Shown piece after piece: positions 2,647 to 17,686 of a stretch of DNA of 21,741 nt. Within the stretch, counting starts at the first letter, position 1. Each line of letters begins with the position of its first letter. The stretch covers positions 1 to 21,741 of the IMG/VR virus record IMGVR_UViG_3300025141_008015, one strand, 5' to 3'. The translations under genes and the position numbers were made by a program. The stretch comes from a virus. Below the pieces are notes generated by a model. It saw nothing but the letters and a program-made list of their open reading frames with translations. It ran no database searches and had not been told where the DNA came from.

Positions 2647-3980
2647 GATGATAATCGAGGCAGGGAGGCAAAGAAATTGTCTACCACTTCCGCAATATAA
2701 TCCAGCTTTTCATCGGTAAGGCCAATAAAAGTTCCCAAGAAGAAGGAGTCCAACGTGACCTTATTTGCAACAGGGAAGGACTCAATTTCACCTTCTTTTG
2801 CTAAATGATTGTACCCTGGGTGAGCAAGGATATTTCCACTAAAGTAAGAGCGAGTCTGAATCTTTGCAGACTCTAAGTGCTGTATAAAATCATCACGCGA
2901 GAATCTATCAGTTTTTAAAGTTAACAAGTATGCAAACCAGCAAGGGTCAGACTTAGGTGTAGCCTCTGGAAGGTAGAAAAAGTCCTCATACTTTCTAAAA
3001 ATATCATTTAATCTAGCGTGATTCTTTCTTCTCGCTGCGTCCATCTCGGGAAGCTTTTTAAGTTGCTCAAGTCCTATAGCTGCTTGAAGTTCTAAAGGCT
3101 TAAGATTGTATCCAATCTCATTAAACACATACCTGTGGTCATAAATAGCATCAGGCATCCCAGGCAACCAATTCTTAAATCTATTACCACAAGCTGTTCC
3201 TCCTGTTACTGATCCAGGTTTCATGCTATTACAATAACACCCTCGACCCCAATCCCTAACGCTGGCTAGAACCGTCCGTGCTTTGTTGCTATTGGTAGCG
3301 ATAAATCCTCCCTCACCTAGAGTCATGTGGTGAGCAGGAAAGAAGGAGCAGGTGGACATATGCCCAAAGGATCCCAGCTTCTTACCGTCATAAAAAGATC
3401 CAAGAGCATCGCAAGCATCCTCCAAGAATATTAAATCATACTTATCAACTAAGCCCATAAGCCTATCCATATCAGGAGGATTGCCTAACACATGGGCAAA
3501 AATAATGCCTTTAATCTCAGGATCTTCCTCCAATTTTGCCTCTACCTTATCCAGATCAAGGTTTACACTAGGAAGCTCTACATCAACGAATACAGGCTCA
3601 AATCCATGCTGAATTATTGGATTAATAGTTGTGGGAAAACAAACGACAGGAGTTATAAACTTTGATCCTTTAGGGAGGTCATACAAATTCCTAGAAGCGA
3701 CTGCGGCAACCATTAACAAGTTTGCCGAACTCCCTGAATTGGTTAAAGCCCCATAATCCATCCCTAAGTACTGCGGGAACTCTAACTCAAACTCTCGGCC
3801 CTTCTTACCAAAAATAAACCACTCATCAAGAAAGCTGTCAATAGCCGCCACAAACTCATCTTCATTAAAGTGGGGACCAGAGTACTCAACCCAATCATCC
3901 CCTTTCTCCCAGGAACGACTGGCTCTTTTGTTTTGTACATACTCTGCTACTAAATCTAATATGCGTTGTTTTTCAACCAT
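2643..3980 (-). CDS. rfbH: RfbH/E1-like PLP- and [2Fe-2S]-dependent NDP-4-keto-6-deoxyhexose 3-dehydratase
   Basis: DegT/DnrJ-fold protein of 445 residues. The usual PLP-binding Lys is replaced by His in FFPAHHMTLGEGG (213-225; His217), which turns an aminotransferase into a C3 dehydratase as in RfbH/AscC (E1) and ColD. E1 also binds a [2Fe-2S] cluster through a C-X57-C-X1-C-X7-C pattern. Here Cys190, Cys248, Cys250 and Cys264 give C-X57-C-X1-C-X13-C, so the first three positions fit exactly and the last loop is six residues longer. The C-terminal part (residues 281-304, DHRYVFNEIGYNL and onward) is also RfbH-like. Known E1 uses CDP-4-keto-6-deoxyglucose and needs reductase E3 (RfbI/AscD), which is not in the window. 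An A-type Fe-S carrier gene lies 13 bases upstream. I see no Shine-Dalgarno before the ATG. Confidence 0.9.
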   Translation of the reverse strand: MVEKQRILDLVAEYVQNKRASRSWEKGDDWVEYSGPHFNEDEFVAAIDSFLDEWFIFGKKGREFELEFPQYLGMDYGALTNSGSSANLLMVAAVASRNLYDLPKGSKFITPVVCFPTTINPIIQHGFEPVFVDVELPSVNLDLDKVEAKLEEDPEIKGIIFAHVLGNPPDMDRLMGLVDKYDLIFLEDACDALGSFYDGKKLGSFGHMSTCSFFPAHHMTLGEGGFIATNSNKARTVLASVRDWGRGCYCNSMKPGSVTGGTACGNRFKNWLPGMPDAIYDHRYVFNEIGYNLKPLELQAAIGLEQLKKLPEMDAARRKNHARLNDIFRKYEDFFYLPEATPKSDPCWFAYLLTLKTDRFSRDDFIQHLESAKIQTRSYFSGNILAHPGYNHLAKEGEIESFPVANKVTLDSFFLGTFIGLTDEKLDYIAEVVDNFFASLPRLSS

Positions 3981-3993
3981 ACGCTATTATAGT

Positions 3994-4314
3994 TCAATCG
4001 CAGGAAAAAGAGGTGCCACAACCGCAAGTTTTTGTAGCTTTAGCGTTAGAAAATTCAAAGCCTGATTGACTCAAAGTTGTTTTATAATCAACCTCTGTTT
4101 CGTTTAACATAAAATCACTTTTTTTGTCTATAACAACTTTAAACCCAGACTCCTCAGTCACCGTATCTTCAGGGCCAATTTGATGCTCTTCTTGAACCTC
4201 CATGTCATAAGAGAAGCCAGCACAACCACCCCCCTTAACACGGACTCTCAATACATCGCCCTCATCTAAGGCTTGATTCAAGTAACTAACTGCGGATTCA
4301 GTGAAAGTTAACAC
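3994..4314 (-). CDS. A-type iron-sulfur carrier (IscA/SufA/ErpA/HesB family)
   Basis: Small Fe-S carrier of 106 residues, the full family length, which hands [2Fe-2S] or [4Fe-4S] clusters to apo-enzymes. The three conserved cysteines are present: Cys31 in VKGGGCAGFSYDM and Cys97/Cys99 in the C-terminal TCGCGTSFSCD; the extra Cys105 near the end is not part of the usual triad. It begins with GTG at 4314, sharing the G with the TAG stop of the radical SAM gene (TAGTG) and preceded by AGAGG. It lies between two genes for Fe-S enzymes, the radical SAM protein and the RfbH-like dehydratase, so maturing these two enzymes is its likely job. I cannot tell IscA, SufA and ErpA subtypes apart from sequence alone. 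Confidence 0.93.
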   Translation of the reverse strand: MLTFTESAVSYLNQALDEGDVLRVRVKGGGCAGFSYDMEVQEEHQIGPEDTVTEESGFKVVIDKKSDFMLNETEVDYKTTLSQSGFEFSNAKATKTCGCGTSFSCD

Positions 4315-5681
4315 TAAGAGCCTCTAATAGAATCTTCAACAGCATCAAACTTCTTGAGTTTAGATCCTTTAAGAGTAATGAGAGGAGCATTAACCCAGGT
4401 TTCCACTTCAACACCAGTTCCACTCTCTTTCTCTACATCACCCATATTCTCTTGGTTCATGAAATCATCAGAGGTAAACACCTTATCATATCTTACAGGA
4501 ACTTCAGAATCCCCATACGACTCAGAGATAACATTCTCAATAAATCCTTTATCTACACCACAAATACAAGGCATATTCTTTCTAGGGTCAAACCACTTAA
4601 TATTTAAACCCCGTCCTATAATATCAGCCAAAGACTCTTCAAAGAAATTACCCAAAGAAACGTGCTGGTAGGGACATGGGAGAATATCTCCGTATCTTGT
4701 AACAGGGACCATGCGCTTAACCGCAATACAACCAATATCTCTACCGTAAGAGGGGGTCATGTGAGTAAAAATATCATATTCTTCCTCAAACTGCTGGAGG
4801 ATCTTACCTTCCTTCTCAGTCATCATTTGCTCTGTAACGCCTTCGTATGCGCCAACAGGCTTTGCGTAAACCACATAGGTTCCCACATCCTTGGACTTTG
4901 CGTAATCTAGGAATGATCTCCACTCCTCTGTATAGATGCGATCCTTCCAGATAACAGTAGAAAGGATAACGTGTAGGTCTGCCTCTTTGCAAGCGTCGAT
5001 AGCTGTCATAACTCTCGCCCATGAGCCAGGGGCTCTACGGAAGGTGTCATGGCTTTCTGCATCGGCTCCATCTAAACTAAGCTGCACTTTATCTACACCA
5101 ATCGCTTTGAGATGCTTCGCTCTCTCTAGGTCTAGGTTCCAACCGTTTGAGTCTGTAACCAGATAGAATCTATCAGGACCGATGGCTTCAACTAGTTCAT
5201 CGAATTCTTTTAAAAGGAGGGGCTCTCCTCCTGTAATAACGAAATTGGCTAACCCCATAGCATCAGCTTCATCAGCAAGTCGTCGTACATCTTCTAATTC
5301 GAACTTACGACGCCCACTCCCCTCTTCCCAGTTTTTAGGAACGTAGAACTTGTCAATACAGCAGTGCTCACAATCAAAGTTACAGAGATAATCATACTGA
5401 AATTGAATAATAGCAATGCTTTCTCCCTTTGCAATTTTCTCGGGGTACTTGATCATCTTGTCGTATACTTTAGGTTTGTATCCTTTTAACCAGTTTTGGC
5501 GAAGGGCTTCTTCCTTGACCGTAGTGTGCTGCATCACCTTACCCTCAGCGATATCTTTTAACTCATCGGCAGATTTCTCGACCAACATATCCTGAAGTTC
5601 TTTTTCAGACCATGGTAGAACATGATCCTTATCGTTACCCTCTAAAGGTGTTTGAAACATAGTACTGTTTGAATTTGCCAT
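4314..5681 (-). CDS. Radical SAM enzyme with SPASM-like C-terminal cysteines
   Basis: Protein of 455 residues with the radical SAM signature CxxxCxxC at Cys100, Cys104 and Cys107, followed by ITGGEPLLL (149-157, the SAM-contacting GGEP) and LSLDGADAESHD (201-212), a typical barrel strand. The C-terminal segment has Cys318, GDILPCPYQHVSLGNF (331-346, Cys336), Cys372 and Cys374. This looks like a SPASM or twitch domain that binds auxiliary Fe-S clusters. A roughly 85-residue N-terminal region before the barrel has no motif I recognise. The reaction is unknown. Its place in a sugar operon suggests dehydration, epimerisation or rearrangement of a sugar, but SPASM enzymes also modify peptides. The start shares one base with the upstream stop (TAATG) and follows AGAAGG. 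Confidence 0.9.
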   Translation of the reverse strand: MANSNSTMFQTPLEGNDKDHVLPWSEKELQDMLVEKSADELKDIAEGKVMQHTTVKEEALRQNWLKGYKPKVYDKMIKYPEKIAKGESIAIIQFQYDYLCNFDCEHCCIDKFYVPKNWEEGSGRRKFELEDVRRLADEADAMGLANFVITGGEPLLLKEFDELVEAIGPDRFYLVTDSNGWNLDLERAKHLKAIGVDKVQLSLDGADAESHDTFRRAPGSWARVMTAIDACKEADLHVILSTVIWKDRIYTEEWRSFLDYAKSKDVGTYVVYAKPVGAYEGVTEQMMTEKEGKILQQFEEEYDIFTHMTPSYGRDIGCIAVKRMVPVTRYGDILPCPYQHVSLGNFFEESLADIIGRGLNIKWFDPRKNMPCICGVDKGFIENVISESYGDSEVPVRYDKVFTSDDFMNQENMGDVEKESGTGVEVETWVNAPLITLKGSKLKKFDAVEDSIRGS

Positions 5682-6079
5682 TATTTACCTTCTAATTCTT
5701 CTTTTGTTGTTTTGCTAACGGTGTAGCGATAAGGAGTAGCCTCACTTCCATCATGACGAACCCCTCCTTTATATTTATGCTTGGACACATCTGCTTGTCG
5801 CATGTTATCTTCTAATATATTTAAGTTCAATGCAGATACAAACCAAATCTTTCCGTCCTCATCTATGACTCGATACTGAGGTTTAATACGTCCACGAATA
5901 TCATCAATAATAACTCGGCTTCCCTTTTTTAGAGTTACAGGCTGATCATTCTTCCCTTGATGAATCTCATCCTCTATAACTACCCCAATTTGGTTAATAA
6001 CTTTACTCCATTTAATAGAGTTATGCTTAAACCACTCTTCTCCTGTAACATTCGAAACAAAATCTTTTTTCTTACTCAT
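5681..6079 (-). CDS. Hypothetical protein, possible small beta-barrel
   Basis: Protein of 132 residues that I do not recognise. The N-terminal third is charged with no signal peptide or membrane segment. Residues 47-90 contain VTLKKGSRVIIDD and YRVIDEDGKIWFVSALNLNI, an alternation of strands and turns like an SH3 or KOW-type barrel. The tail is polar and lysine-rich. There are no cysteines, so it is not a metal protein. It overlaps the methyltransferase gene before it by ATGA and the radical SAM gene after it by TAATG, so it is translated in step with both. This position could mean an accessory subunit or adaptor for the radical SAM enzyme, but that is guesswork from location. Confidence 0.7.
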   Translation of the reverse strand: MSKKKDFVSNVTGEEWFKHNSIKWSKVINQIGVVIEDEIHQGKNDQPVTLKKGSRVIIDDIRGRIKPQYRVIDEDGKIWFVSALNLNILEDNMRQADVSKHKYKGGVRHDGSEATPYRYTVSKTTKEELEGK

Positions 6080-7197
6080 TCTCTTATATATATTCCATTA
6101 TCACGCAAAACAGATAAACCTACCCCCAAGTTCAATTTTAATAACTTCGAAGCTACTTCATCGGAATAGCTCGCAGCCATAACTATTATAGCTTCTGGAG
6201 GGTCTTCATGCAAAATTTCAGCGGAAACTATAGGAATATGTGTTGCGGGGGTATATTTTCCTTGTTTAAATGGAGCGTCATCAACAACATACTTTATTTT
6301 ATCTCCCAGATCAGCCAAAGCGAGAACCGCTAACGCTTGATGCCCAGCACCGTAGACTGCCACAGACTCCTCTGAAAATTTAGCCAGATAATCCATAATT
6401 TGCTGGGTAATTTTTTTCTGTTGACGCTTAAAAGAGCTAAGATTAGGAACTTGTTTCTTTTTTACTACAGCAGAAATAATATAATCATGCCAAACTTCAT
6501 TCATTTCGACAACTTCAAAGCCATTTCTATTTAAAACATGCTCTAATGTGTCGGACGTAAAGTAATAAAGATGGTCATTGATAAATTCAGAGAATAAATT
6601 CTCCTTAATTATCATATCAAAATTAGGAACTTCAATTAAACCTATTCCATCGTCCTTTAAATTAAGGTAAAGAGCCTGTAAAGTGCTATTTAAATCTGGT
6701 AGATGCTCGAAAAAATTGAGTATAAAGAAGCAATCAAAAGGAGCTTCCTTTACTTCGTGGTGAGCGTATAGAATATAATCTTTTTCTACTTGTAATCCCG
6801 CATCTAAACAATAATTAACTGAATCTTGAGCGTATTCAATGCCGTATGCATCAGTTCCTGTATCCTGCATTAACTGTAAAAATTCGCCTTTACCGCAACC
6901 CACCTCCAAAACCTTTTTATCTTTCAGGTCATACTTATCCACAAAATCAGCGAACTGCTGCACACGAAATTGTTCCATCTCATCTGAAAACGCAGAAGCG
7001 CGTATAACCTCCTTATGGTATGGCACAGGCTCGTTACTTAGCTGAACCAAATCGCATAACGAACATCGACATACCTCTAAATCTGCGCCTTTTTCATCCT
7101 GCAACTCATGTAAACTTGGAAAATGCTGCGCTGCTTTAGGCATATTGCCATAGCATAGTAATGTTTTTAGTGGTCCTGAACAAACTCTACAAATCAA
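6076..7197 (-). CDS. SAM-dependent sugar C-methyltransferase (TylC3/NovU/TcaB9-type)
   Basis: Protein of 373 residues with the three-part layout of NDP-4-ketohexose C3-methyltransferases. An N-terminal zinc knuckle has Cys3, Cys6, Cys45 and Cys48, with Cys43 nearby. A class I SAM fold has LEVGCGKGEF (97-106). A C-terminal Rossmann-like part begins at VYGAGHQALA (281-290). The catalytic segment reads FINDHLYYFT (205-214), with His209 at the position of the conserved His and Asp in place of the more common Glu. The expected product is a 3-C-methyl branched deoxysugar. The start is TTG at 7197: it overlaps the previous stop as TTGA, has AGAGGA 9 bases upstream, and is the only start that keeps the first zinc cysteines. 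It sits just after an SDR gene, as in antibiotic deoxysugar clusters. Confidence 0.88.
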   Translation of the reverse strand: MICRVCSGPLKTLLCYGNMPKAAQHFPSLHELQDEKGADLEVCRCSLCDLVQLSNEPVPYHKEVIRASAFSDEMEQFRVQQFADFVDKYDLKDKKVLEVGCGKGEFLQLMQDTGTDAYGIEYAQDSVNYCLDAGLQVEKDYILYAHHEVKEAPFDCFFILNFFEHLPDLNSTLQALYLNLKDDGIGLIEVPNFDMIIKENLFSEFINDHLYYFTSDTLEHVLNRNGFEVVEMNEVWHDYIISAVVKKKQVPNLSSFKRQQKKITQQIMDYLAKFSEESVAVYGAGHQALAVLALADLGDKIKYVVDDAPFKQGKYTPATHIPIVSAEILHEDPPEAIIVMAASYSDEVASKLLKLNLGVGLSVLRDNGIYIRE

Positions 7198-8090
7198 TAT
7201 AAAAAATCCTCTTTTACAATAATAGAGTGATGACGGTCATACCACTTATACAAGTCAGCAATTGCTACACCAGTTGGAACAAAAGTAAAATGTTTTTCTT
7301 GTAAAAGCCTAAAATTGTCTCCACTATACTCAATGCCTTCTCCCTCCTCTAGGGTTTCTAAATCTAAATCTTTTCGGGAAAATTTAATTACTTTTTGTCC
7401 TAGTTCTTTATATGAGCTAACCTCAGCAGAACAAATGTTATACGAATGATATTTTGGGGTATTTTCGATGAACCAATGTACTATACGAGCTAAATCTGAA
7501 ATGTATAAATAATCGAAAAGGGCATCCTTTTTTAAAGTGATTGGCATTCCCAAAACTGCCTTGCAGCAAGCGTTAGGTATAAACCTGTATCTCCAATCAT
7601 CAAATTTACCATAAAGACCAAACAACCTTAAATTATAAATGTTGCTACTGTCCTTGGCTTTCTTATTCATAATATGTTTAGAGTAACCATAGGGGTCTTT
7701 TGGTACAAACTCCTCGATATACTCCTCGGTCATTTTAGGGACCCAATTCTCTCTCCCCGCTTCTGCCCCTGAACCAAAATAAAGCATCTTTCCATAATGC
7801 TCTCTACAAGAGGAAAGATTAGAGAACATTCTTAAATTTATGTCTAAGACATCAGATCTCATCTTATCGGTAAAGGATGGAACCGCATCATGATTAGCGG
7901 TATGAATTACCACATCGAACTTCTCTTTTTTTAGGTAATCCGCAACTTTCTTAGTATCCAGCAGATCTAGACCTTGTCTATTTAAACAAATTACATTAGA
8001 TTTTAATGGCTCAAAATAAACATTACTTAAGTACTCATAAAGACTTTTAGCTATGAAGCCATTCCCTCCCGTTATTAAAATCTTATTCAT
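7194..8090 (-). CDS. NAD(P)-dependent SDR epimerase/reductase
   Basis: Extended SDR protein of 298 residues. ILITGGNGFIAKSL (4-17) is the nucleotide-binding loop, with Ala where the third Gly is common. VIHTANH (61-67) is the following strand, FGSGAEAG (105-112) supplies the catalytic Ser107, and YGYSK gives Tyr134/Lys138. FDYLYISDLARIVHWF is a typical C-terminal SDR helix. The substrate is probably an NDP-ketosugar reduced or epimerised at C4 or C5. It overlaps the end of the ThDP-lyase gene by 8 bases and the methyltransferase start by 4. In the yersiniose pathway a ThDP enzyme (YerE) is followed by an SDR reductase (YerF), so a YerF-like role is possible. I can support only the superfamily from sequence. 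Confidence 0.83.
   Translation of the reverse strand: MNKILITGGNGFIAKSLYEYLSNVYFEPLKSNVICLNRQGLDLLDTKKVADYLKKEKFDVVIHTANHDAVPSFTDKMRSDVLDINLRMFSNLSSCREHYGKMLYFGSGAEAGRENWVPKMTEEYIEEFVPKDPYGYSKHIMNKKAKDSSNIYNLRLFGLYGKFDDWRYRFIPNACCKAVLGMPITLKKDALFDYLYISDLARIVHWFIENTPKYHSYNICSAEVSSYKELGQKVIKFSRKDLDLETLEEGEGIEYSGDNFRLLQEKHFTFVPTGVAIADLYKWYDRHHSIIVKEDFLY
7207..7212 (-). promoter_or_regulatory. Shine-Dalgarno supporting the TTG start of the C-methyltransferase
   Basis: AGAGGA on the minus strand, 9 bases before the TTG at 7197. It supports the rare start, which keeps the N-terminal CxxC zinc pair; no ATG exists close to this point in frame. Confidence 0.6.
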
Positions 8091-9888
8091 CTATGGGAGC
8101 AATAATCATATTTTCCAAGAACTCATCCCTGTCTAAAAAAGGAGCTAAGTCTTCCATCGGTCTTGCCATAAACTGACCATCCTTTGTTTTGTATACGCTT
8201 GCTTTTGGTGCTGTCACATGGTCCTCTGGCAGCATTACTTCACAGATAACAGGTCCGTCCTGTTCCAATAGCCCATCAACATCCCAGAGGTCACTCATTG
8301 TTTCAAAACGCATATAACGAATACCGTAAGCCTCCGCATTCTTTTCTAAACTAGGAAGTGTAAGCCCACTACTTCTCCCGCTTGCAACAAACTTTTTATC
8401 GAAATGAGTTTCTTGTGTATTTCTGATAGACACATACCCATTATTATTTAAGACAAAGAATTTGATTGGAAGGTTTAAGCGTTTAACAACCTCAAGTTCC
8501 TGAATATTCATGATGAAACCACCATCACCATCAATACAAACAGTAGGTTTGTTCCCTGCGGCTATACAACCTCCCATGGCAGCGGCGATCCCAAAACCCA
8601 TTGGACCTAAACCTTCGCTGTTAAACATTCTTTGGCCCTTCTTAATCTTAAAGGCTTGCATTGTAACCTCGCTGCATCCTCCCGAACTTCCTGGAATGAT
8701 TAACGCATCTTCAGGCATGAGGTACGACAGCACCTCTATAAATCCATAGTTACTAATGTTATCATCATCGTCAAAATGCTCCTCAGTAACGACAGGATAT
8801 TTGGCTTGCCAATCTTTACACTTATCTAACCACTCTTTGGAAACAGGTTTGATCTTATGCTTCTGCTTAAGCACCTCTTCAATAAAGTCTTTGCAGTCTG
8901 CAACAATAGGATACTTGATATCCATATCGAGTTTATCAATCTCGGCCTTATCAATATCCACGATAACCTTTGTAGCTTCTCTTGCAAAATACTTATGTTG
9001 ATATGCAGTTTGTCCATGATCTAGCCTCGCCCCTAAACTCAATAGAAAGTCTGAGTTTTGTTGAGAGAAATTAGCTCCCCTTTGTCCTACACCTCCTGGC
9101 CTTCCGACAAATAAAGGATGATTTTCTTCCAAGAAATCAATTGCTTTCCAAGTAAGAAGAACAGGTATTTGTAGGAAATCGCAAAGCTCTTTGAGTTGTG
9201 TGATACTTCCCGATAAACGGACACCGTTACCTGCTAAAATAACAGGTCTCTCAGACCTATTTAAATCTTCGATGAGGTTAGAAACAGAGTCCTTTAAAGA
9301 GACTTCGGGAACCTTAGACCAAGCAGGAGTCTCCTTTTTAGGATTGTATCCTTTTAGCTCTTTTTCCTCGATGTAAGCCGCTTGAACATCCAGAGGAATG
9401 TCTATCCAAACAGGCCCAGGTCTACCATTCTGCGCTAAAAAAACTGCCTTTTCTAAGTGATAGTTGATTGATTTTGGGTCAGTCACGGTGATCGCGTGTT
9501 TAGTGACAGGAGAGGCCAAAGATACCATATCAAGTTCTTGAAACCCAATCTGGCGAGTGCCCCTATCATTTATCATATCCTTCTTTTGGACCTGACCCGA
9601 AATAATAAGCATAGGAGTAGAATCTAACCATGCAGCAGCGACCCCCGTTAACGAGTTTGTTCCTCCTGGGCCAGTAGTAACTAAACATACTCCTAAATTA
9701 TTTGTGTATTGTCCATAAGCATCAGCAGCAATACTACAAGCTTGCTCATGTAGATTACACACATAATTTAAATCACTCTTACCTATAGAATCAACAAGAT
9801 GGATACACCCGCCCCCTGGCAAAAGGAAAATATCTTTTACTCCTTGCTGTTGAATAAAATCAACAACATAGTCCGAAAGTTTTATCAT
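8083..9888 (-). CDS. Thiamine-diphosphate enzyme, acetolactate synthase/YerE-like
   Basis: Protein of 601 residues with the full three-domain pyruvate-oxidase-type architecture. The ThDP-activating Glu48 lies in NLHEQACSIAADAYGQ (45-60), preceded by LLPGGG. TTGPGGTNSLTGVAAAW follows. A central domain has an FAD-type segment, GVGQRGANFSQQNSDFLLS (266-284). The diphosphate/Mg motif spans GDGG (454-457) to NNN (481-483). Homologues are biosynthetic acetolactate synthases and YerE, which adds an acetyl unit from pyruvate to the ketone of a CDP-3,6-dideoxyhexulose to make branched yersiniose. No regulatory small subunit or other isoleucine-valine gene is present and the gene sits in a sugar operon. 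A sugar-modifying or keto-acid-decarboxylating role therefore fits better than amino-acid synthesis. The family is sure, the substrate is not. Confidence 0.88.
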   Translation of the reverse strand: MIKLSDYVVDFIQQQGVKDIFLLPGGGCIHLVDSIGKSDLNYVCNLHEQACSIAADAYGQYTNNLGVCLVTTGPGGTNSLTGVAAAWLDSTPMLIISGQVQKKDMINDRGTRQIGFQELDMVSLASPVTKHAITVTDPKSINYHLEKAVFLAQNGRPGPVWIDIPLDVQAAYIEEKELKGYNPKKETPAWSKVPEVSLKDSVSNLIEDLNRSERPVILAGNGVRLSGSITQLKELCDFLQIPVLLTWKAIDFLEENHPLFVGRPGGVGQRGANFSQQNSDFLLSLGARLDHGQTAYQHKYFAREATKVIVDIDKAEIDKLDMDIKYPIVADCKDFIEEVLKQKHKIKPVSKEWLDKCKDWQAKYPVVTEEHFDDDDNISNYGFIEVLSYLMPEDALIIPGSSGGCSEVTMQAFKIKKGQRMFNSEGLGPMGFGIAAAMGGCIAAGNKPTVCIDGDGGFIMNIQELEVVKRLNLPIKFFVLNNNGYVSIRNTQETHFDKKFVASGRSSGLTLPSLEKNAEAYGIRYMRFETMSDLWDVDGLLEQDGPVICEVMLPEDHVTAPKASVYKTKDGQFMARPMEDLAPFLDRDEFLENMIIAPIDE

Positions 9889-9891
9889 GTA

Positions 9892-10395
9892 CTAACCTTC
9901 GTAAGCTGGACCTCTAACGGGAGATTCCGACAAGGAATCATCACCATCCAAGATGTCAACTAATTCAAGGATAGCAGTCATGTCCCTATTGGGGGGGACC
10001 CTATAACCAAAAAAAGTGTGGAAGCTGCTGGCTCCCTCTTCTCCGTAGGCAAGGGAGTGAGGAATAAAAAGCTTTACCTGATCACCAACCTTCATACTTA
10101 AAAAAGCTTCGTCAAACCCCTCAATGGAATCACCCTTAGTGTAGAGATCATCTTTAGGCGTTTCTTGACCAATTACAAACTCGACAGGACCACCAAAAGG
10201 CTTATCCTCGTAAGTACTGTCGTATTGATCCTCTACATATGCTCCCTTATCGTAATTATACTTTGAGGTAGAGGTTCCTTCTCCGAAGCGAATTTCGTAA
10301 TGTGCCAAAACTCTCTGACCACCTTCAGGAGTTTTCCCGCTCCCCTCCTTAATGGGGAAGACTCGTAACCCGTTTTCTTTTACAATTTCCTGCAT
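9892..10395 (-). CDS. FKBP-type peptidyl-prolyl cis-trans isomerase
   Basis: Protein of 167 residues with an FKBP fold, which catalyses cis-trans isomerisation of prolyl bonds. Visible features are VLAHYEIRF (29-37), DSTYED (59-64), GGPVEFVIGQ (68-77), the core helix IEGFDEAFLSMKVGD (91-105), KLFIPHSLAYGEEGA (108-122), VPPNRDMTAILELVDI (133-148). The N-terminal 28 residues and an acidic tail are extra. There is no signal peptide or lipobox, so it should be cytoplasmic. It follows the NeuB-cupin stop directly (TAAATG) and precedes the ThDP gene by 3 bases, inside the glycan operon. Possible roles are folding of virion or tail proteins or of an operon enzyme. An FKBP in a phage sugar operon is unusual. 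Confidence 0.92.
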   Translation of the reverse strand: MQEIVKENGLRVFPIKEGSGKTPEGGQRVLAHYEIRFGEGTSTSKYNYDKGAYVEDQYDSTYEDKPFGGPVEFVIGQETPKDDLYTKGDSIEGFDEAFLSMKVGDQVKLFIPHSLAYGEEGASSFHTFFGYRVPPNRDMTAILELVDILDGDDSLSESPVRGPAYEG

Positions 10396-11895
10396 TTAAT
10401 TAACCCAATGGCTTACCATTGTTTTCCTATTCTTATTCTTCGAAATAGACTCGTCCGTATAATATGAATCATCTACGAAATGAGTTGTAGAGATTTCCTC
10501 AATAATAGACCCTTTTGGGCCTCCAATAAACTTGTGCCGAACTCCAGGATGGATTGTAACAACTTCGCCTGGAAGCATTGTGCTTACCGTATCATCTAGG
10601 AAAAGTTGAACCTCCCCATATAGAACGACAAAAGTTTCCGTCTTCTGCTCGTGATACTGAGTAGGATGCGCTTGATCTGCCAGGGAAATCAGGAGCTTTT
10701 TGCAGTAGCCTTCGTTAACCACTGTAACCATACACAAACCAGTCTCATAAAAGTTTTCAATCCCGTAGTGGTGAGAAATCTCCAAAGGAGCATTTTTAGG
10801 CACAACGACATTTGAATCTTCTAGGAGAGCATTAACTTTATTTCTAATGGTCAAAATGGCTTGCCTAGTATTAACCTCTTTAACCCCATAGTGAAGTAAC
10901 CCTTCATCTCTAAACATATCAACTTTAGCACTATAACCAACATACTTACTCATATCATTAGCTAAGATCTGATTCTGCTTACACGGAAAAGCGTAATAAA
11001 CATCATCTTTTGTAATTACTTCTCCAGCAGAAATATTTCTATTTAAGAAAACACCTCGCTTAAAAGTTCTAAGATCAGATAGCTCTTTCTCTGTGGCAGC
11101 ATGACGCCCCTCGGCTATACCACAAGCCTTTACTGCCCTAGAGGCATTCTCTAACCACTTATCCATCTGCTCAGGGCTAACTGAGTAAACATTCAAATCA
11201 TACTCCTCAGTTGCGACCCCGATATGCTTCTCAAGAACTTCTGCTCCTATACCAAGGGCAATAGGAACTATATCAAAAGTATTAGGATCCTCATGCGTAG
11301 AATAACCCACCTTAACCCCAGGATATCTATCTTTCAAGAGCTTTAATTGATTAAGTTGCATACTTCCTTCTGAGGTAGGATACTCACCAATACAATGCAT
11401 AATGGTTAGGTCTTTCTTGCGATTCAAAAAGAAGGAAACAACATTATCTATATCCTCTAGGTTAGACCCTGCGGTAGATGCAATAATCGGAACGTCCGTA
11501 GCAGCAATACGATTAAGTAAAGGCCAGTCGGTAAACGAACAACTAGCAACTTTAATAATAGGAAAATTCATAGCCTCCATCGTGTCTATCGACCTCTCAT
11601 CAAAGCCAGTACAAATTGAAACGAAACCTTTTGCTTCCGCTAAATGCTTCAACTCGCTAAAGTCAGACTGGGTCAACTCAGTATCTTTGAACCTCTTTAC
11701 ATACTTAACCTCAGTCCTATTCAGGAAATGGGGGTGAATAAAAGTATCAATGTGTCTCAATTGAAACTTAATTCCGTAATTAAATTCAGGATACTTATCC
11801 TTCACTTTAGCAAACTCTTCGATGATAAGTTTACCGTGCTCCACATCTCCCATGTGGTTGTTTGCCATCTCAAATATAACTAATTTTTTGTCCAT
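10396..11895 (-). CDS. NeuB-family sialic/nonulosonic acid synthase with SAF and C-terminal cupin
   Basis: Fusion protein of 499 residues. Residues about 1-260 are a NeuB barrel that condenses phosphoenolpyruvate with an N-acyl hexosamine. It has FEMANNHMGD (8-17), IKFQL (42-46), IIKVASCSF (113-121) and GYSTHE to LEKHIG (197-226), with His201 and His224 at the metal-binding positions of NeuB. Residues about 277-340 resemble the SAF/antifreeze-like domain. Residues about 385-475 are a cupin with His410, His415, Glu420 and His454 and the end motif PGEVVTIHPGVRHKF; it recalls D-lyxose isomerase-like cupins found in SpsE-type proteins. No sugar-2-epimerase (NeuC) or CMP-transferase (NeuA) is in the window, so the exact nonulosonate is open. 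The ATG overlaps the preceding glycosyltransferase by 16 bases. Confidence 0.9.
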   Translation of the reverse strand: MDKKLVIFEMANNHMGDVEHGKLIIEEFAKVKDKYPEFNYGIKFQLRHIDTFIHPHFLNRTEVKYVKRFKDTELTQSDFSELKHLAEAKGFVSICTGFDERSIDTMEAMNFPIIKVASCSFTDWPLLNRIAATDVPIIASTAGSNLEDIDNVVSFFLNRKKDLTIMHCIGEYPTSEGSMQLNQLKLLKDRYPGVKVGYSTHEDPNTFDIVPIALGIGAEVLEKHIGVATEEYDLNVYSVSPEQMDKWLENASRAVKACGIAEGRHAATEKELSDLRTFKRGVFLNRNISAGEVITKDDVYYAFPCKQNQILANDMSKYVGYSAKVDMFRDEGLLHYGVKEVNTRQAILTIRNKVNALLEDSNVVVPKNAPLEISHHYGIENFYETGLCMVTVVNEGYCKKLLISLADQAHPTQYHEQKTETFVVLYGEVQLFLDDTVSTMLPGEVVTIHPGVRHKFIGGPKGSIIEEISTTHFVDDSYYTDESISKNKNRKTMVSHWVN

Positions 11896-12617
11896 TTATT
11901 CTTCCAGTAATTCCTAATTATCTCATCATAATTAACGCCACTTTCTTGAACCTTCCAAGTGGCCTGACCAGAGTGCCAGCGGTAGTAATATCCTAGGGAT
12001 CCATCTACAGGATGAACATACACTCCTCGATTCGCTAACCCGCACCACATATCATAGTCACCTACTCCTATATCTACAAGATTATTTTCAAAATGTGCCT
12101 CCCTGCACTCACTAAGGATAGACCATATACTTTTGTGATAAAATACTGTGGGATTGGTGACAGGACAAAGTTTCAAAGCCATCTCTTTAAACTCATCTAA
12201 AGACTCATACATATGCCCATGGTAATTAATCTGATTCCCTCTCTCGTCCACCCAGACCATACCGCTCTGTAAACACTTAACCTCTTGGGGGATGGCTTTA
12301 ATTACTTCCATCGCATTTGAAATATACTCTGGATGAACGTAATCATCAGAAGAAATAAAGGTAATGTAATCGCTAGTGCAATTCTCAAAAACATGATTCA
12401 TTGCTTCTCTATACCCATTAGGCTCTACATTGGGTACGCTACGGACTTCAAAACTGCCGTCTTGCCGATCCAATAAATGCTCATAGGTTCCATCAGTGCT
12501 TTCGTTGTCGTAAACTAGTACCTCCAAATTTGTGTACTTCTGAGATAAGACCGAATCTAGGCATTGATCAACATACTTCATTGAATTGTATGTTGGAATA
12601 ACCGCAGTAACTTTCAT
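11880..12617 (-). CDS. Family 2 glycosyltransferase (GT-A fold)
   Basis: Inverting-type glycosyltransferase of 245 residues, probably adding one sugar from a nucleotide donor to a growing glycan. The N-terminus is canonical, with AVIPTYNSMKYVDQCLDSVL, and is followed by VLVYDNESTDGT and the metal-binding FISSDDYVHPEY, where SSDD replaces the more common DxD. A later VGDYDMW carries the acidic residues of the acceptor side. I chose ATG at 12617, not the upstream TTG at 12623. That ATG overlaps the HAD stop as ATGA and has GGAGG 7 bases upstream (12625-12629). The protein then starts MKVTAVIP, as is usual for the family. There is no transmembrane segment, so it acts at the cytoplasmic membrane face or in solution. 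Confidence 0.92.
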   Translation of the reverse strand: MKVTAVIPTYNSMKYVDQCLDSVLSQKYTNLEVLVYDNESTDGTYEHLLDRQDGSFEVRSVPNVEPNGYREAMNHVFENCTSDYITFISSDDYVHPEYISNAMEVIKAIPQEVKCLQSGMVWVDERGNQINYHGHMYESLDEFKEMALKLCPVTNPTVFYHKSIWSILSECREAHFENNLVDIGVGDYDMWCGLANRGVYVHPVDGSLGYYYRWHSGQATWKVQESGVNYDEIIRNYWKNKWTKN

Positions 12618-12907
12618 TTCCAATCCTCCACATTCATAACTCGATCATCAATAAATAAATCAAAGTAAGGCTTATCAAAGATAACGGGAATACCTCCCAC
12701 ACCCCAAGAAGCTAATTGATTTAAAGTTAACTCCTGCCAATCTTTACCAGACAGGCTTCCTCGCGCAGTCCAAAAAGAAACATCATGTCCTTCGGAAACC
12801 AATGCTTTTACTTTTTCTATGTTTTCAAAAATGGGAGTAGATTTAGAATAATCACTCACATCTTGGGTCTTGCAGATTGTGTTATCTATATCAATGTATA
12901 TAATCAT
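12614..12907 (-). CDS. Small HAD-type phosphatase
   Basis: Minimal HAD phosphatase of 97 residues without a cap domain. Motif I is YIDIDNTIC (4-12), with nucleophile Asp6 and acid/base Asp8. Motif II is FWTARG (45-50, Thr47). Motif III is the Lys in FDKPYFD (Lys79). Motif IV is FIDDR (85-89, Asp87/Asp88), so all catalytic positions are kept. Similar short HAD proteins occur in capsule and LPS clusters and in phages and are thought to remove phosphate from sugar or lipid phosphates. Between two glycosyltransferase genes, with ATGA overlaps on both sides, it probably dephosphorylates a sugar phosphate, perhaps the NeuB product, though no substrate is visible in the sequence. Confidence 0.85.
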   Translation of the reverse strand: MIIYIDIDNTICKTQDVSDYSKSTPIFENIEKVKALVSEGHDVSFWTARGSLSGKDWQELTLNQLASWGVGGIPVIFDKPYFDLFIDDRVMNVEDWK

Positions 12908-13803
12908 AACTCTAATAAAGCCTTTACACGATGAACATATGTGTGCTCATCCAAAATAAGCTTCCTATTCTCCTCTTTAATATCCAATAAATCCTCTTTT
13001 AAATACTTCTCTACCAAGGAAACAAAACTGTCCACATCTTCAGCAGTAGGAACCGAAGGAAAAAGATTTATCACCTCGGTCACCGCATCACAAATAAGAA
13101 ATCCTGTTAAGCCTAAAGACTTAAAGGTTCGTTCATTTGAATCCGTACCTAAAACTCTCTGATATTGATCGTGCAAATTCAAAGCGATCTTGCTGTTGTA
13201 AAGAAGATTAGCCTCTTCCTGATCAGAAATCCCTTGATTTATTGCGAGCCCCAGCTTTATATCTAACTTTTTTAATGCATCAAAATGAGAACGCATTATC
13301 TGTCGCTTCTCATTAAATCCATTATCTGCCCAACCACCAACAAAGCACACATCATGCTCAAAGGACTCAGCCTTTTCTGGTTGGTACCCTAAATGGTCAA
13401 AAGCTAAAGGAATATAATTAACCTTCTTCCATTTTGTATGGTATTTATCAGTATTGCCGAAAGCCCACAAACGCACATTATCTAATTCATTTACCTTTTT
13501 AATATACTCTAAGGGACAATGGCATTGGAAGTTGGGGTGAGTGCCCCAAGGATCAGGAAACTCGTTAGGCTGCACATAAAGAAAAGTTTTTTGAGACTCT
13601 TTAATTTTTTGTAGTGCTAGGTCTGAGTTAACATCTCCACCTAATGCCATCACATAGTATTTATTTTTTCTGCCATTGATCTCATCTAAAGAATTATAAT
13701 AAACAACAGAATAACCCAACCGCTCCCAAGCTCGTTTGTATCCTTCGTAGATCCACTTGCCTGCACCAGACCAATGCTTTTTAATAAACACTTTACGCCC
13801 CAT
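12904..13803 (-). CDS. CgeB-like GT-B glycosyltransferase
   Basis: Protein of 299 residues resembling the CgeB/spore-maturation-type GT-B transferases. The N-terminus has FIKKHWSGAGKWIYEGYKRA, a glycine-containing acceptor-side loop. DVCFVGGWADNGFNEKRQ marks the start of the C-terminal domain, and NERTFKSLGLTGFLICD matches the donor-binding helix and strand of the family (Arg and Glu of the NE-RTFK segment, then a small-residue turn). I take the ATG at 13803 and not the TTG one codon upstream, because AGGAG (13811-13815) lies 7 bases before it. It overlaps the second CgeB-like gene by 11 bases. The sugar transferred is unknown. Confidence 0.82.
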   Translation of the reverse strand: MGRKVFIKKHWSGAGKWIYEGYKRAWERLGYSVVYYNSLDEINGRKNKYYVMALGGDVNSDLALQKIKESQKTFLYVQPNEFPDPWGTHPNFQCHCPLEYIKKVNELDNVRLWAFGNTDKYHTKWKKVNYIPLAFDHLGYQPEKAESFEHDVCFVGGWADNGFNEKRQIMRSHFDALKKLDIKLGLAINQGISDQEEANLLYNSKIALNLHDQYQRVLGTDSNERTFKSLGLTGFLICDAVTEVINLFPSVPTAEDVDSFVSLVEKYLKEDLLDIKEENRKLILDEHTYVHRVKALLEL

Positions 13804-14701
13804 CAAAAATCTCCTCTAACATAGAGTTTAATCTAACTTTCGATTCATGCTCTTTTAAAAATCTAGCATGACCCCTCTCAGCAATCTCGCTTGCTTCCTG
13901 TGGATTAGATAATAGATAATTTGCTTTTTCAGTAAACTCTTCAGGAGTAGAGAAAGTAACAATCTCTTTGTCAACCTCAAAAAAGGACTCTACTCCTGGA
14001 TGATACTCTGTAAGCACTACACATTTGGCTGCTGCCAACTCAAACACACGTTGCTTCATCTGAGTCTTTCCTTCTGGGTCATTAGAATTTAAACTTAAAT
14101 TAACGCCAATTTTTGAGCGGCAATAAAAATCAAACAAGTCTTCAATGGATAAATTCTGTCCTATAGTTACAGGATCATCTAAAGCAGAGAAAAACTCGCT
14201 CCTGCTTTGATTCATCCCCCCTACAAAAGAAATATCAATATCCTTCTTAGTCTCAGGATAGTAATCTGAATTTACATGCCAACAGCCTAGAAGGATATTT
14301 TTATATCCAGTATCCTTAAACTTATCAACATAGGAAGGCTCTGGGGTTGAGCAGTGAGTAAAATACCAGCAGATATGTTTAGAGAAATTTTCAAATCTCC
14401 AAGTATCATCACAGAACCAATTAAAGGTTTTTATTTTCCCTTGACGAGTGATCCTCAAAATATCATTCCAAGGTTCGTGTGGGGTTATCCCTGGATTCCC
14501 AGTAAAGCAACAAAAGATTAAATCAGGAGAAAAAGCAGAAACTACTACTCTGAAATCAGGGATAACAGGAGCCACAGTATCATACAAAGAAACGTGATGA
14601 CCTAAAGCTTCTAAAGGTTTTTGTAGATAATGATAACCAGTATCTAACTCTTGCTTACCGTTCCTAAGCAGAGTTTTGTTAGTTACTATAAGTATTCTCA
14701 T
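13793..14701 (-). CDS. CgeB-like GT-B glycosyltransferase (second copy type)
   Basis: Protein of 302 residues, a second member of the CgeB-like group. It starts MRILIVTNKTLLRNGKQELD, continues with FNWFCDDTWRFENF (93-106), then DISFVGGMNQSRSEFF (156-171). The strongest family match is QRVFELAAAKCVVLTEYHPG (217-236), followed by residues 241-272 (FEVDKEIVTFSTPEEF, then YLLSNPQEA) and a C-terminal RGHARFLKEHE helix, the usual tail of these enzymes. It has little direct identity with its neighbour beyond the shared fold, so this is not a recent duplication. It is coupled to the gene before by ATGA and overlaps the gene after by 11 bases. Donor and acceptor are unknown. Confidence 0.85.
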   Translation of the reverse strand: MRILIVTNKTLLRNGKQELDTGYHYLQKPLEALGHHVSLYDTVAPVIPDFRVVVSAFSPDLIFCCFTGNPGITPHEPWNDILRITRQGKIKTFNWFCDDTWRFENFSKHICWYFTHCSTPEPSYVDKFKDTGYKNILLGCWHVNSDYYPETKKDIDISFVGGMNQSRSEFFSALDDPVTIGQNLSIEDLFDFYCRSKIGVNLSLNSNDPEGKTQMKQRVFELAAAKCVVLTEYHPGVESFFEVDKEIVTFSTPEEFTEKANYLLSNPQEASEIAERGHARFLKEHESKVRLNSMLEEIFDGA

Positions 14702-15321
14702 TTTCCCTTACCGTTGACGCCTCCAACCTCTGGGCGAACTAAGTAAATAACCTTCCCAAACCAATCTATTTTATGCCCTGCGGACACACAAGCCTTAATA
14801 TGAAAGAAGTCTGTTAGATTTTGTTCTTCTAGGTTTATTGTATCAAGAAAAGGGATCTTAGAGAATATAGAGGTCCTATAAGTAGGCATCGCTACATTCC
14901 CAGGAACCACCCCCAAATCACCATTTAAACACAAATCAGTAGAGGCATGTACTGTATCTCCTGAGTCCTGATCATAAACTTTTATCCTTCTATCAAAGCG
15001 AACCCCTGCTGCCCATATATCCACAGAAGGATCTTCTTTAAGTTTATCACGAATAATTTTACCAGCACCTACGGCAAACTCATCGTCATCATCTAAAAAG
15101 GTTATGAACTCAGTTTCTGCCATAGCGGCTCCGACATTTGCTGCCATGCCTCCATAAAATCCCCACTGCCTTCCAAGCTTTACAAGCTTAACACCTTGGG
15201 CGCTAACTTTTGCACCATCACTGACTACAATTACGTTAAACCCTTCTCTCTTTGCTGAAAGAATAGCATTCTTTAACGTAGGTCTTCCAATCGTCTTTAT
15301 AATTACAGTAGTATCACTCAT
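14698..15321 (-). CDS. Family 2-like glycosyltransferase (GT-A fold), short
   Basis: Protein of 207 residues with a compact GT-A fold. The first strand is TTVIIKTIGRPTLKNAILSA, followed by VIVVSDGAK and the metal-binding FITFLDDDDEF (72-82). GFYGGMAANVGAAMA (54-68) is the usual helix before the DxD. The C-terminal half (GNVAMPTYRTSIF, LTDFFHIKACVSAGHKIDW) resembles the acceptor region of phage and bacterial GT2 enzymes. It is shorter than most GT2 proteins and has no membrane segment. The ATG overlaps the preceding glycosyltransferase by 8 bases. Donor and acceptor sugars cannot be told from the sequence. Confidence 0.85.
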   Translation of the reverse strand: MSDTTVIIKTIGRPTLKNAILSAKREGFNVIVVSDGAKVSAQGVKLVKLGRQWGFYGGMAANVGAAMAETEFITFLDDDDEFAVGAGKIIRDKLKEDPSVDIWAAGVRFDRRIKVYDQDSGDTVHASTDLCLNGDLGVVPGNVAMPTYRTSIFSKIPFLDTINLEEQNLTDFFHIKACVSAGHKIDWFGKVIYLVRPEVGGVNGKGK

Positions 15322-16501
15322 GCAATTTCTCCGCTAAATCACTTCGCCCACTCATCTCAAACGCATCTTTATATAAAGTATATCTTTGATCTATTACTTT
15401 ATTTATATCAAAGTACTCCTCCGTAACTTCGTGTAGATTTCTCCCCATTTGGTCCCTATGCTTCTTATCACGAATAACTTTAGTTAAAATTTTCACCCAC
15501 TCCGCAGGAGGTGCATTCGGGTCAATAAGATACCCTGTTCGACCGTTTTTAATAGTTTCATCGTAGCAACCAACATTAGATGCGACTAAAGGTACTTTAT
15601 ATCTTCCACACTCTGCTACCTTAATTTCAGACTTAGAATCATTGAAATCATTCATCTGGAGGGGAGCTATGGCAAGATCTATATTTGCAAAAATAACCCC
15701 ATACTGATCGGAAGGCAAAGCTGAATGAATAAACCAATTTTTAGCACCCTTAAATCCTTTGAGCAATATCCTCTGATAATTATCCCAAACGTCTAGTTGC
15801 CACTTCTCTTTTTCGTCATTGGGATCAACTGGAGGGCGACCAAAGAAATGCCACTCCACGTTCTCTCTTCCTACTCGTTGGTTAACAAAATGAGGAATAC
15901 CAGCAAACTCTTTTACGTCCTCCTCATGGTGAATTCCTCCTGCCCAACCAATCCTCACCAGCCTCTTACTCCTAGGGGGAACCTTCGGATGATTCCAGTT
16001 ATCTAAGTTATAATCAATTGCATTTTTTACAACCGCTAAAACACCCTTACAGAACGGACCTATGCGACTTGCAAATTTTCTCTGTGTAACGGTTACCAAA
16101 TCGGAACTCTGGTATAAAAATTTTGTTATCTCAGATAACCCCTTTTCTTCGTAAACTTGCTTTAGTCTATGGCCTTCGTATAAGTTCGTTAAAAGATCAT
16201 CAGTATCATAATGGACAAACTTCCCAAACTCCTTAGCCTTCCCTATGAGTCGCCCAGTGTACGGACCTCCCCAATTGCTGATGTTTTGAGTCATCACAAC
16301 ATCAGACCATTTTATAGCCTCAAAATCCCAGTTTTCTTGCCATGCACCTGTACTGGTGTCTATGCCCAAAGGATTCATCTCAAAGCGCATCTCAATTGAA
16401 TCAGGGTATCTTTCTGCGAGCTTTCTCATAGGAGCCCAAGCTCGATAGTAGGCACAACCACCCTCATTGGCGGGACAACATAAAATCTTTAACTTATCCA
16501 T
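15314..16501 (-). CDS. GT-B (family 4-like) glycosyltransferase
   Basis: Protein of 395 residues with a GT-B retaining-type fold, first gene of the glycan operon. The N-terminus reads KLKILCCPANEGGCAYYRAW, with VHYDTDDLL at about residue 95-103. A second Rossmann domain begins at RIGWAGGIHHEEDVKEF. The family hallmark is SEIKVAECGRYKVPLVASN, then GCYDETIKNGRTGYLIDP, with the Glu of the E-x7-E motif region. The ATG at 16501 directly follows the T-tract of a terminator-like hairpin and has no Shine-Dalgarno. Either translation is inefficient, or the true start is further in (the next Met is residue 25), or a downstream promoter gives a very short leader. The first 24 residues look conserved, so I keep this start. 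Confidence 0.87.
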   Translation of the reverse strand: MDKLKILCCPANEGGCAYYRAWAPMRKLAERYPDSIEMRFEMNPLGIDTSTGAWQENWDFEAIKWSDVVMTQNISNWGGPYTGRLIGKAKEFGKFVHYDTDDLLTNLYEGHRLKQVYEEKGLSEITKFLYQSSDLVTVTQRKFASRIGPFCKGVLAVVKNAIDYNLDNWNHPKVPPRSKRLVRIGWAGGIHHEEDVKEFAGIPHFVNQRVGRENVEWHFFGRPPVDPNDEKEKWQLDVWDNYQRILLKGFKGAKNWFIHSALPSDQYGVIFANIDLAIAPLQMNDFNDSKSEIKVAECGRYKVPLVASNVGCYDETIKNGRTGYLIDPNAPPAEWVKILTKVIRDKKHRDQMGRNLHEVTEEYFDINKVIDQRYTLYKDAFEMSGRSDLAEKLHE

Positions 16502-16559: not shown

Positions 16560-16952
16560 TTATGCTTTTTTTGTAGGTTTTGCAGCCTCAACTTTTTTAG
16601 TAGCCACTTCTTCCTCATTGGTAGCCTTAGTGGCATCTGAGGAATGCGCTAGACCAAGACCTGAGCCCAGAGAATTAATAGCATCCCCAAATTCCATATT
16701 CTTGTTCATAGGCACAATTGCCATAACCATGTTGGTGTAGTGCTGCCTCTTTCTTGGACTGAAGATAGAACATCCACCCTCCCAAGCAGCAAGACTAGGA
16801 AGGAACCCTTTTAAAAGAGTCCAGATGTTGTCGAGAAATCCTCCAGGAGAGTCAGTAGTGCCCTCACCCATAAACCCCTCAACCATAGAGCAAGACATCA
16901 GACCCGCTCCAAATAGAACCGCAATAGCGGCAGGTAGAATAATATTTTTCAT
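16560..16952 (-). CDS. Phage-encoded lipoprotein, function unknown
   Basis: Protein of 130 residues with a type II signal peptide: Lys2, a hydrophobic stretch IILPAAIAVLFGAG and the lipobox LMSC with Cys21. After signal-peptidase II cleavage it would be a lipoprotein of about 110 residues. The mature part has a short hydrophobic stretch (FLDNIWTLLKGFLPSLAAW, 39-57), a second Cys61 and a charged low-complexity tail, ATKKVEAAKPTKKA. I know no family for it. The ATG overlaps the SSB stop as ATGA, so it is translated together with the ssDNA-binding protein, an odd partner. Roles such as superinfection exclusion, membrane anchoring of replication or lysis (outer spanin) are possible. I see no inner-spanin partner. 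A terminator follows it. Confidence 0.75.
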   Translation of the reverse strand: MKNIILPAAIAVLFGAGLMSCSMVEGFMGEGTTDSPGGFLDNIWTLLKGFLPSLAAWEGGCSIFSPRKRQHYTNMVMAIVPMNKNMEFGDAINSLGSGLGLAHSSDATKATNEEEVATKKVEAAKPTKKA

Positions 16953-17686
16953 GATTGTAACCTTTCCATGTAATCGTTATCATCAACGTCCACAACAGGA
17001 CGGTTAATGTCATCAACAGATCTCTCAACAGCCGCAAAGGGGTTGATACTTTCAGCGATCTGCTTAAGCTCCTCATAGTCTTCCAGTTTCACAAGAGACT
17101 GGATATCATGAAGAGTGTCCATCCATTCTGCAACCTCTTTTCCACTACCCGCAGGGGTAGACTTGGGCCTGGGCGCAGACTGATCGTATTTAGGCCATTG
17201 ACCCTCCATAACCTTAATAATTTTAAAGTCATGTCCTCCTTCCGCATCGGTAATATCACCATAATCAGGATCAACCATAGCAGCAATAATCTTCTTAAAG
17301 AGGATGATGCCAATAGAAAGAATCTTCACAGCCCCTGTTTCACGGTCTACAACATTAAGGTAGTAGCGGTCGCGCCCTTTAATTTGACGAGCAAGGTCCT
17401 CATCTTTAGTGGGCTCCTTCCAAAGAGAGAAGTATAGATTGCAGATGGGGCACTGCTCTCCGTGAACTGAACGACAGTGAATATTTTTTACTGTGCCGTC
17501 TTGCATAGGAATCCTATGCAGTTTGGTCATAGCGTAAAAGTCCTGATCTTCTTCCTTGGGAGGAAGGATTCTAACAGTGTTAGTACCCTCTTCAATTTTG
17601 AGGAATGTATCGGACATTCCACCACCCCCACCTTTGCCTGAAAGGTTAGCGTGGATTTCCTTAATCTTATCTAAATCAATAGCCAT
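16949..17686 (-). CDS. ssDNA-binding protein, T4 gp32-like
   Basis: Protein of 245 residues, somewhat shorter than T4 gp32 (about 300), that coats and protects single-stranded DNA during replication and recombination. A basic and glycine-rich N-terminus (SGKGGGGG, 16-23) is followed by the OB-fold core. The zinc site lies in NIHCRSVHGEQCPIC (68-82), where His70 or His75, Cys71, Cys79 and Cys82 are candidate ligands, echoing the His-Cys-Cys-Cys site of gp32. Further hallmarks are RYYLNVVDRE (107-116) and an acidic C-terminal tail, VDDINRPVVDVDDNDY, for partner proteins. AGGAG (17697-17701) lies 10 bases before the ATG. It is the only gene of the module with a real upstream gap, 67 bases, which suits separate strong expression. 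Confidence 0.86.
   Translation of the reverse strand: MAIDLDKIKEIHANLSGKGGGGGMSDTFLKIEEGTNTVRILPPKEEDQDFYAMTKLHRIPMQDGTVKNIHCRSVHGEQCPICNLYFSLWKEPTKDEDLARQIKGRDRYYLNVVDRETGAVKILSIGIILFKKIIAAMVDPDYGDITDAEGGHDFKIIKVMEGQWPKYDQSAPRPKSTPAGSGKEVAEWMDTLHDIQSLVKLEDYEELKQIAESINPFAAVERSVDDINRPVVDVDDNDYMERLQS

Follow-up and report, generated by a model that had tools for sequence, protein, structure and literature searches.

A phage operon predicted to make rare sugars and assemble an oligosaccharide carries one of two alternating thiamine-diphosphate enzyme types

The DNA described here (the window, 21,741 bases) is the whole of a linear virus record, IMG/VR IMGVR_UViG_3300025141_008015, and most of it is occupied by a cassette of glycosyltransferase (GT) and sugar-making genes. 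The record is a fragment and breaks off inside the cassette at position 1. The minus strand carries all main genes, and all functions were assigned by homology and context. Megablast of the window against 50,697 phage records gave no match. The related contigs, from IMG/VR, are uncultured, and cassettes comparable to this one in cultured phages are marine, from which we take the source to be an uncultured aquatic, probably marine, phage.

Positions 11880–16501 are tiled by six open reading frames (ORFs), neighbouring ones overlapping by 4–14 nucleotides (nt). Mononucleotide shuffling of the stretch (100 times) gave a longest stop-free run of 199 codons (median, 105), and five of the six ORFs are longer, at 207–395 amino acids (aa); the sixth, a 97-aa HAD ORF, is within the shuffle range, so its call rests on homology instead. 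ORF tiling, Pfam and PHROG matches and structure models confirm what an initial annotation of the sequence had proposed for this block, namely five glycosyltransferases and a small HAD protein in tandem. The block does not stop at 11880, and a reading of it as a stand-alone operon was dropped because the next gene, for NeuB, overlaps gtA2 by 16 nt. It makes up just the first third of an operon of 18 genes that runs from 16501 down to 1, where the record ends, with intergenic gaps of −38 to +13 nt from gtB1 to gmd, and the remaining genes concern sugar making. The 18 genes clearly form one operon and cassette. The initial annotation missed both the sugar-making genes and the division of the glycosyltransferases into core and swappable ones that is described below. 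The operon is preceded by genes for a gp32-like single-stranded DNA-binding protein (SSB), a DnaB-like helicase and ribonucleotide reductase (Table 1; operon genes are listed in their order from gtB1 onwards).

Table 1 Features of the cassette and its left flank in the window
Feature	Position	Strand	Evidence
gp32-like SSB, left anchor of cassette	16949..17686	-	phrog_1192 1.2e-34; synteny in relatives
Small putative lipoprotein (N-terminal hydrophobic segment, LMSC)	16560..16952	-	hydrophobicity scan
gtB1, core GT-B (GT4-like), first operon gene	15314..16501	-	PF00534 1.2e-9; phrog_7162 5e-29; GT-B model
gtA1, small GT-A (GT2), DDDD motif, swappable position	14698..15321	-	PF00535 2.3e-7; 9 loci
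gtB2, GT-B, family almost only in phages	13793..14701	-	PF13524 2.3e-28; model pLDDT 92
gtB3, GT-B, related to gtB2	12904..13806	-	PF13524 9e-13; hhalign to gtB2 97.7%
Minimal HAD hydrolase/phosphatase	12614..12907	-	phrog_1238 2.6e-21; DIDxT and FIDD motifs
gtA2, GT-A (GT2)	11880..12623	-	PF00535 6.4e-27
NeuB-family nonulosonic acid synthase, SAF and C-terminal cupin	10396..11895	-	PF03102 6e-42; PDB 3G8R 362 bits
FKBP-type peptidyl-prolyl isomerase	9892..10395	-	PF00254 2.4e-11
YerE-like thiamine diphosphate (ThDP) carboligase, proposed 4-keto sugar branching enzyme	8083..9888	-	TPP_enzyme N/M/C; HEQ and GDG motifs
SDR reductase/epimerase, proposed ketoreductase of branch	7194..8090	-	PF01370 7e-29; usually 1-2 genes from ThDP enzyme
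Sugar C-methyltransferase (TylCIII type)	6076..7197	-	PF13489, PF08484, weak PF08421
o7, 132-aa protein without family, adjoins radical SAM gene	5681..6079	-	83% identical in L119
Radical SAM/SPASM protein	4314..5681	-	PF04055 3e-23, PF13186; 92% identical in L119
IscA-type Fe-S assembly protein	3994..4314	-	PF01521 2e-20
RfbH/E1-type 4-keto-6-deoxyhexose 3-dehydrase	2643..3980	-	NCBIfam PRK15407 451 bits (cutoff 423); PDB 3BCX 344 bits
RmlB-type NDP-glucose 4,6-dehydratase	1696..2646	-	TIGR01181 295 bits (below 365 cutoff); PDB 2HUN 233 bits
GDP-L-fucose synthase-like (Fcl)	788..1702	-	NF047922 182 bits, below 500 cutoff
GDP-mannose 4,6-dehydratase (Gmd), cut by record end	1..825	-	TIGR01472 339 bits, 270/342 positions

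The fold classes given initially, three GT-B and two GT-A enzymes, are borne out. The accompanying statement that their sequences are unrelated fails for gtB2 and gtB3, which are related to each other. AlphaFold models of gtB1 (pLDDT 89) and gtB2 match GT-B enzymes in the PDB, and Foldseek places both among generic GT-B enzymes, with no hint at an acceptor. The closest cultured carriers of the gtB1 family are phages of the phAPEC8 group, at about 25% identity. The gtB2 family was found at 50 viral loci and, among 84,980 cellular genomes, at one bacterial locus (Acidobacteria, 27%), the neighbourhood of which is uninformative; the cellular genomes were scanned with one short peptide pattern, so that the result favours a phage-restricted family without proving it. 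The HAD call is based on PHROG 1238, which is itself named phosphoheptose isomerase, together with weak matches to EcbF/HAD profiles and conserved DIDxTIC, WTARG and FIDD motifs; in relatives the gene accompanies a full-length NeuB-cupin gene.

gtB1 and the genes behind it behave differently among related phages. gtB1 follows the gp32-like gene in all 50 related contigs that have at least 2 kilobases (kb) of downstream sequence, and at a median of 66% identity to the window it is no less conserved than the gp32-like SSB and DnaB (62%), whereas the gene after gtB1 is drawn from nine families. In three long records of this lineage the variable stretch ends at UvsX (c79, taken as UvsX from its RecA-like sequence); it measures 21 kb in G001 and about 18 kb in both G024 and G026. 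gtB1 thus belongs to the phage core, and the genes after it to a swappable cassette. Within the latter, gtB2, gtB3 and gtA2 recur with branched-sugar genes (ThDP enzyme, SDR, RfbH and RmlB) in about 45 phage contigs, and the same module is also present in phages with another backbone, marked by PhoH-like, nuclease and gp55-like genes that were named by sequence inspection. The glycosyltransferases probably use the branched sugar.

That a branched 3,6-dideoxysugar is made is quite likely, judging from the enzymes encoded. The RmlB-type dehydratase scores 295 bits with the dTDP-type profile versus 88 with the CDP type; it is probably dTDP-linked, so its nucleotide may differ from that of the CDP substrate of YerE. 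RfbH is full-length and above the curated PRK15407 cutoff, and in its PAHH motif a His replaces the Lys that binds pyridoxal phosphate, as it does in all E1-type phage relatives but not in the shorter DegT paralogues. The ThDP enzyme is closer to YerE-like enzymes than to acetolactate synthase (best PDB match 8RPH, 391 bits, versus 270 for acetolactate synthase 5AHK) and has the catalytic Glu and a GDG motif. We infer that 8RPH is the YerE-like enzyme JanthE, as its CDG motif, in the alignment, agrees with what has been described for that enzyme (PMC12247030). The substrate to which YerE itself attaches a two-carbon unit is CDP-3,6-dideoxy-4-keto-glucose (PMC12247030). The proposed role of the SDR protein rests on its position, because its solved relatives are weak matches.

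Comparison of gtB2 loci revealed that the ThDP enzyme alternates with another. Among loci with enough flanking sequence, 18 carry a YerE-like gene, 25 a split transketolase (separate Transketolase_N and Transket_pyr genes) and none both. On the gtB2 tree the ThDP type switches 15 times, with at least 10 switches forced by well-supported branches; L043 and L044 have near-identical gtB2 proteins and different ThDP partners, and in independent pairs the types were opposite in 10 of 10 (p=0.002). These counts depend on ORF calling and hidden Markov model cut-offs, and this first sample was anchored on gtB2. When sampling was anchored on the ThDP genes instead, 124 distinct loci were obtained: 63 YerE-like, 58 with a split transketolase and 3 with both. 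An SDR gene is a neighbour at 51 of the 63 YerE-like and 57 of the 58 transketolase loci, and an RfbH with the E1 motif is one at 45 and 35 of them, respectively. A homologue of PanB (ketopantoate hydroxymethyltransferase) occurs at 14 of the 63 YerE-like loci (for example, L040:14469-15401) and at none of the 58 transketolase loci. As the YerE-like enzyme ErwE prefers hydroxylated 2-oxo-acid donors (PMC12247030), PanB perhaps makes such a donor. In L042 and L049 the YerE-like gene is itself divided into two adjacent ORFs (c68 and c131), mirroring the split transketolase.

Enzymes with equivalent jobs would be expected to replace each other in a single slot in this way. We give roughly even chances to a mobile module in which a YerE-like carboligase and a split transketolase are functionally interchangeable and would yield differently branched sugars on a virion glycan. 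In algal viruses, an ‘acetolactate synthase’ or two ‘transketolase’ genes found with a dTDP-glucose 4,6-dehydratase have been described as genes of amino-acid and pentose-phosphate metabolism (PMC5454428), and on that precedent the ThDP genes here could serve ordinary metabolism (branched-chain amino acids, pentose phosphate) and just happen to lie near unrelated glycosyltransferases. This is very improbable given the YerE-like closest solved relative, the SDR and RfbH neighbours and the mutual replacement, which is not expected of unrelated metabolic genes. The algal-virus genes may, conversely, belong with those for sugar branching.

The initial annotation saw no flippase, polymerase or membrane protein; this holds in the sense that no polytopic protein is encoded, and extends beyond the window, as none of 890 proteins from 49 cassettes has three or more hydrophobic segments and PF01943 (Polysacc_synt), PF04932 (Wzy_C) and PF02397 (Bac_transf) gave nothing over cutoff in 27 records, with controls matched. 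The cassettes therefore bring no export machinery of the host type. A Wzx/Wzy O-antigen cluster was rejected on these grounds, its flippase and polymerase not being encoded, and so was a gtrABC serotype-conversion cassette, which would have a small flippase, GtrA, and a membrane-bound GtrB: gtA2 matches GtrB PHROGs in the GT2 domain only and is without a membrane segment. Soluble glycosyltransferases could act on host lipid-linked glycans all the same, extending or capping the lipopolysaccharide (LPS) core or an O-unit that host MsbA or Wzx then exports, with the surface changed and other phages excluded. Pelagimyophage glycosyltransferases have been read in this way (PMC7029224), related sugars occur in bacterial O-antigens (PMC12247030, PMC4753412) and a site among replication genes fits early expression. 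Modification of host glycans is in our view the main rival explanation, although less likely than not: the cassettes are also without a membrane-anchored glycosyltransferase, ligase or initiating transferase; gtB1 is as conserved as DnaB, which suggests an acceptor conserved with the phage and not one that varies with the host; and gtB2 is, by the pattern used, nearly absent from cellular genomes.

The position of gtB1 beside gp32 and replication genes also brings to mind the glucosyltransferases of T4, which modify DNA bases, and T4 alpha-glucosyltransferase turns up in the structure search with gtB2, ranked 24th in a list of generic GT-B enzymes. Glycosylation of modified phage DNA bases is very unlikely, however. 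The pyrimidine hydroxymethylase family PF00303 was found in none of the 27 records, several of which exceed 100 kb and which may be fragments; the sugar set goes far beyond known DNA glycans; and the phAPEC8 group, the nearest cultured phages with a related glycosyltransferase, is reported to be very susceptible to restriction (PMC8594841). A search for Tet/JBP carries no weight in either direction, as its control matched nowhere. The three acceptors suggested initially are thereby narrowed: DNA bases are disfavoured, and virion proteins and a host lipid carrier are both still candidates.

Our preferred explanation, at about even probability overall, is an operon that equips the phage to produce rare nucleotide sugars of its own and to join them into an oligosaccharide in the cytoplasm of the host, with a virion protein as the likeliest acceptor. 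Host NDP-glucose would be dehydrated by the RmlB-type enzyme and 3-deoxygenated by the RfbH/E1-type enzyme, the 4-keto carbon would gain a branch of two or more carbons through the YerE-like enzyme, and the branched sugar would then be reduced and C-methylated. Gmd and Fcl would convert GDP-mannose to GDP-fucose, and NeuB would supply a nonulosonic acid. gtB1 would start the chain on an acceptor conserved in the phage lineage, with variable sugars added by the swappable glycosyltransferases. The stepwise assembly of an oligosaccharide that was proposed initially is supported. For the acceptor itself, a virion protein falls slightly short of an even chance. Because the cassettes encode no flippase, polymerase or ligase, glycosylation would most probably take place in the cytoplasm, on a virion protein that the phage encodes; and gtB1 being a core phage gene, the acceptor would be conserved with the phage, for which a virion protein is the simplest candidate.

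NeuB-carrying cassettes of three relatives (L037, L040 and L044; for example, L044:14488-15330) contain a PF01973 (Maf-type) protein. In the cytoplasm, flagellin is glycosylated with such sugars by Maf (PMC4065374), and by analogy the Maf-type protein beside NeuB suggests direct cytoplasmic protein glycosylation in these relatives. A GT29-like protein (sialyltransferase family) and a NeuA-cupin fusion are also found in phage cassettes (L070:13007-13912 and L077:15992-17128).

Several observations weigh against cytoplasmic assembly of phage-made sugars on a virion protein. Three of the four cysteines aligned to the cluster region of 3BCX are kept in RfbH, and the third of 3BCX is a Ser here; the four-cysteine set is what we take to be the [2Fe-2S] ligands of RfbH/E1. 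No E3 reductase was seen, nor, in the window, which is a fragment, a CMP-sugar synthetase for the NeuB product or a Maf-type glycosyltransferase; no PF00483 nucleotidyltransferase was found in the 27 records, so host supply must be assumed. In this lineage the cassette is placed among replication genes and not virion genes, and a common view of phage-encoded glycosyltransferases is that they modify the O-chains of the host (PMC7029224).

The closest known counterpart is the yersiniose pathway of Yersinia O-antigens (YerE/YerF), with JanthE and ErwE, which shares a 4,6-dehydratase, an RfbH-type 3-dehydrase, a ThDP carboligase and a reductase gene. The cassette described here differs in being phage-borne, in having an RmlB-type and not a CDP-type dehydratase, in the lack of any cytidylyltransferase, E3 reductase or Wzx/Wzy seen, and in the interchange of its ThDP enzyme with a split transketolase. 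Separate Transketolase_N and Transket_pyr genes at the presumed place of keto-sugar branching are shared with the miharamycin and amipurimycin clusters, the split-gene transketolases of which are proposed to branch sugars; those have been reported only from Streptomyces, with 13 sequences (PMC12247030), whereas the genes reported here occur in dozens of phages, beside RfbH-type genes. Large glycosyltransferase cassettes of marine phages, read as O-chain modifiers (PMC7029224), form the hypervariable GT/LPS regions of cyanophages and pelagimyophages. That of the cultured Synechococcus phage RN05-S likewise combines glycosyltransferases, Gmd, epimerases and an RfbH relative in a large cassette, but its glycosyltransferase families differ, it lies near tail genes and not in the gp32/UvsX interval, and no YerE-like or split transketolase gene was detected in that stretch. 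Virus-encoded sugar enzymes and glycosyltransferases also serve virion glycosylation in chloroviruses and mycobacteriophages; the sugar set here is richer and the virion acceptor is inferred. Chlorovirus capsid glycans, with a conserved core and variable outer sugars (PMC9614988), provide a precedent for the division of labour proposed for gtB1 and the swappable enzymes.

Viral glycan cassettes are thus known. What appears to be new is sugar branching by interchangeable ThDP enzymes carried by phages; a limited literature search, which is not proof of absence, turned up neither phage-encoded branching of the YerE-like kind nor the alternation. If our reading is correct, there are phages with complete pathways to rare branched sugars, such as occur in bacterial O-antigens and antibiotics, together with dedicated glycosyltransferases. 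If the two enzyme types are indeed interchangeable, this would be the first strong genetic evidence for keto-sugar branching by split transketolases, and their near-perfect alternation in one slot makes the question of whether transketolases accept keto-sugars directly testable. Viral metabolic genes annotated as acetolactate synthase or transketolase may then often be glycan enzymes.

Other features of these loci are less readily placed. Within 3994–6079, which encodes IscA, the radical SAM/SPASM protein and o7, the radical SAM protein is the most conserved part of the cassette (92% identical in L119, against 63–70% for the glycosyltransferases); the matches to SkfB, BlsE and MoaA were too distant to name its substrate. 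B12-binding radical SAM proteins are present in other cassettes. The FKBP gene, situated within the sugar genes, occupies the same interval between NeuB and the ThDP enzyme in L067, L068 and L119. About 41 related loci also have the small putative lipoprotein gene that separates gtB1 from the gp32-like gene; it possibly encodes an envelope or superinfection protein. YerE-like matches in cultured phage records were not used: they are about 23–32% identical, are annotated as or resemble plain acetolactate synthases, and many of the records look bacterial. In the phage collection (hits H104-H133), many ‘phage’ records with acetolactate synthase matches resemble bacterial contamination or misassembly.

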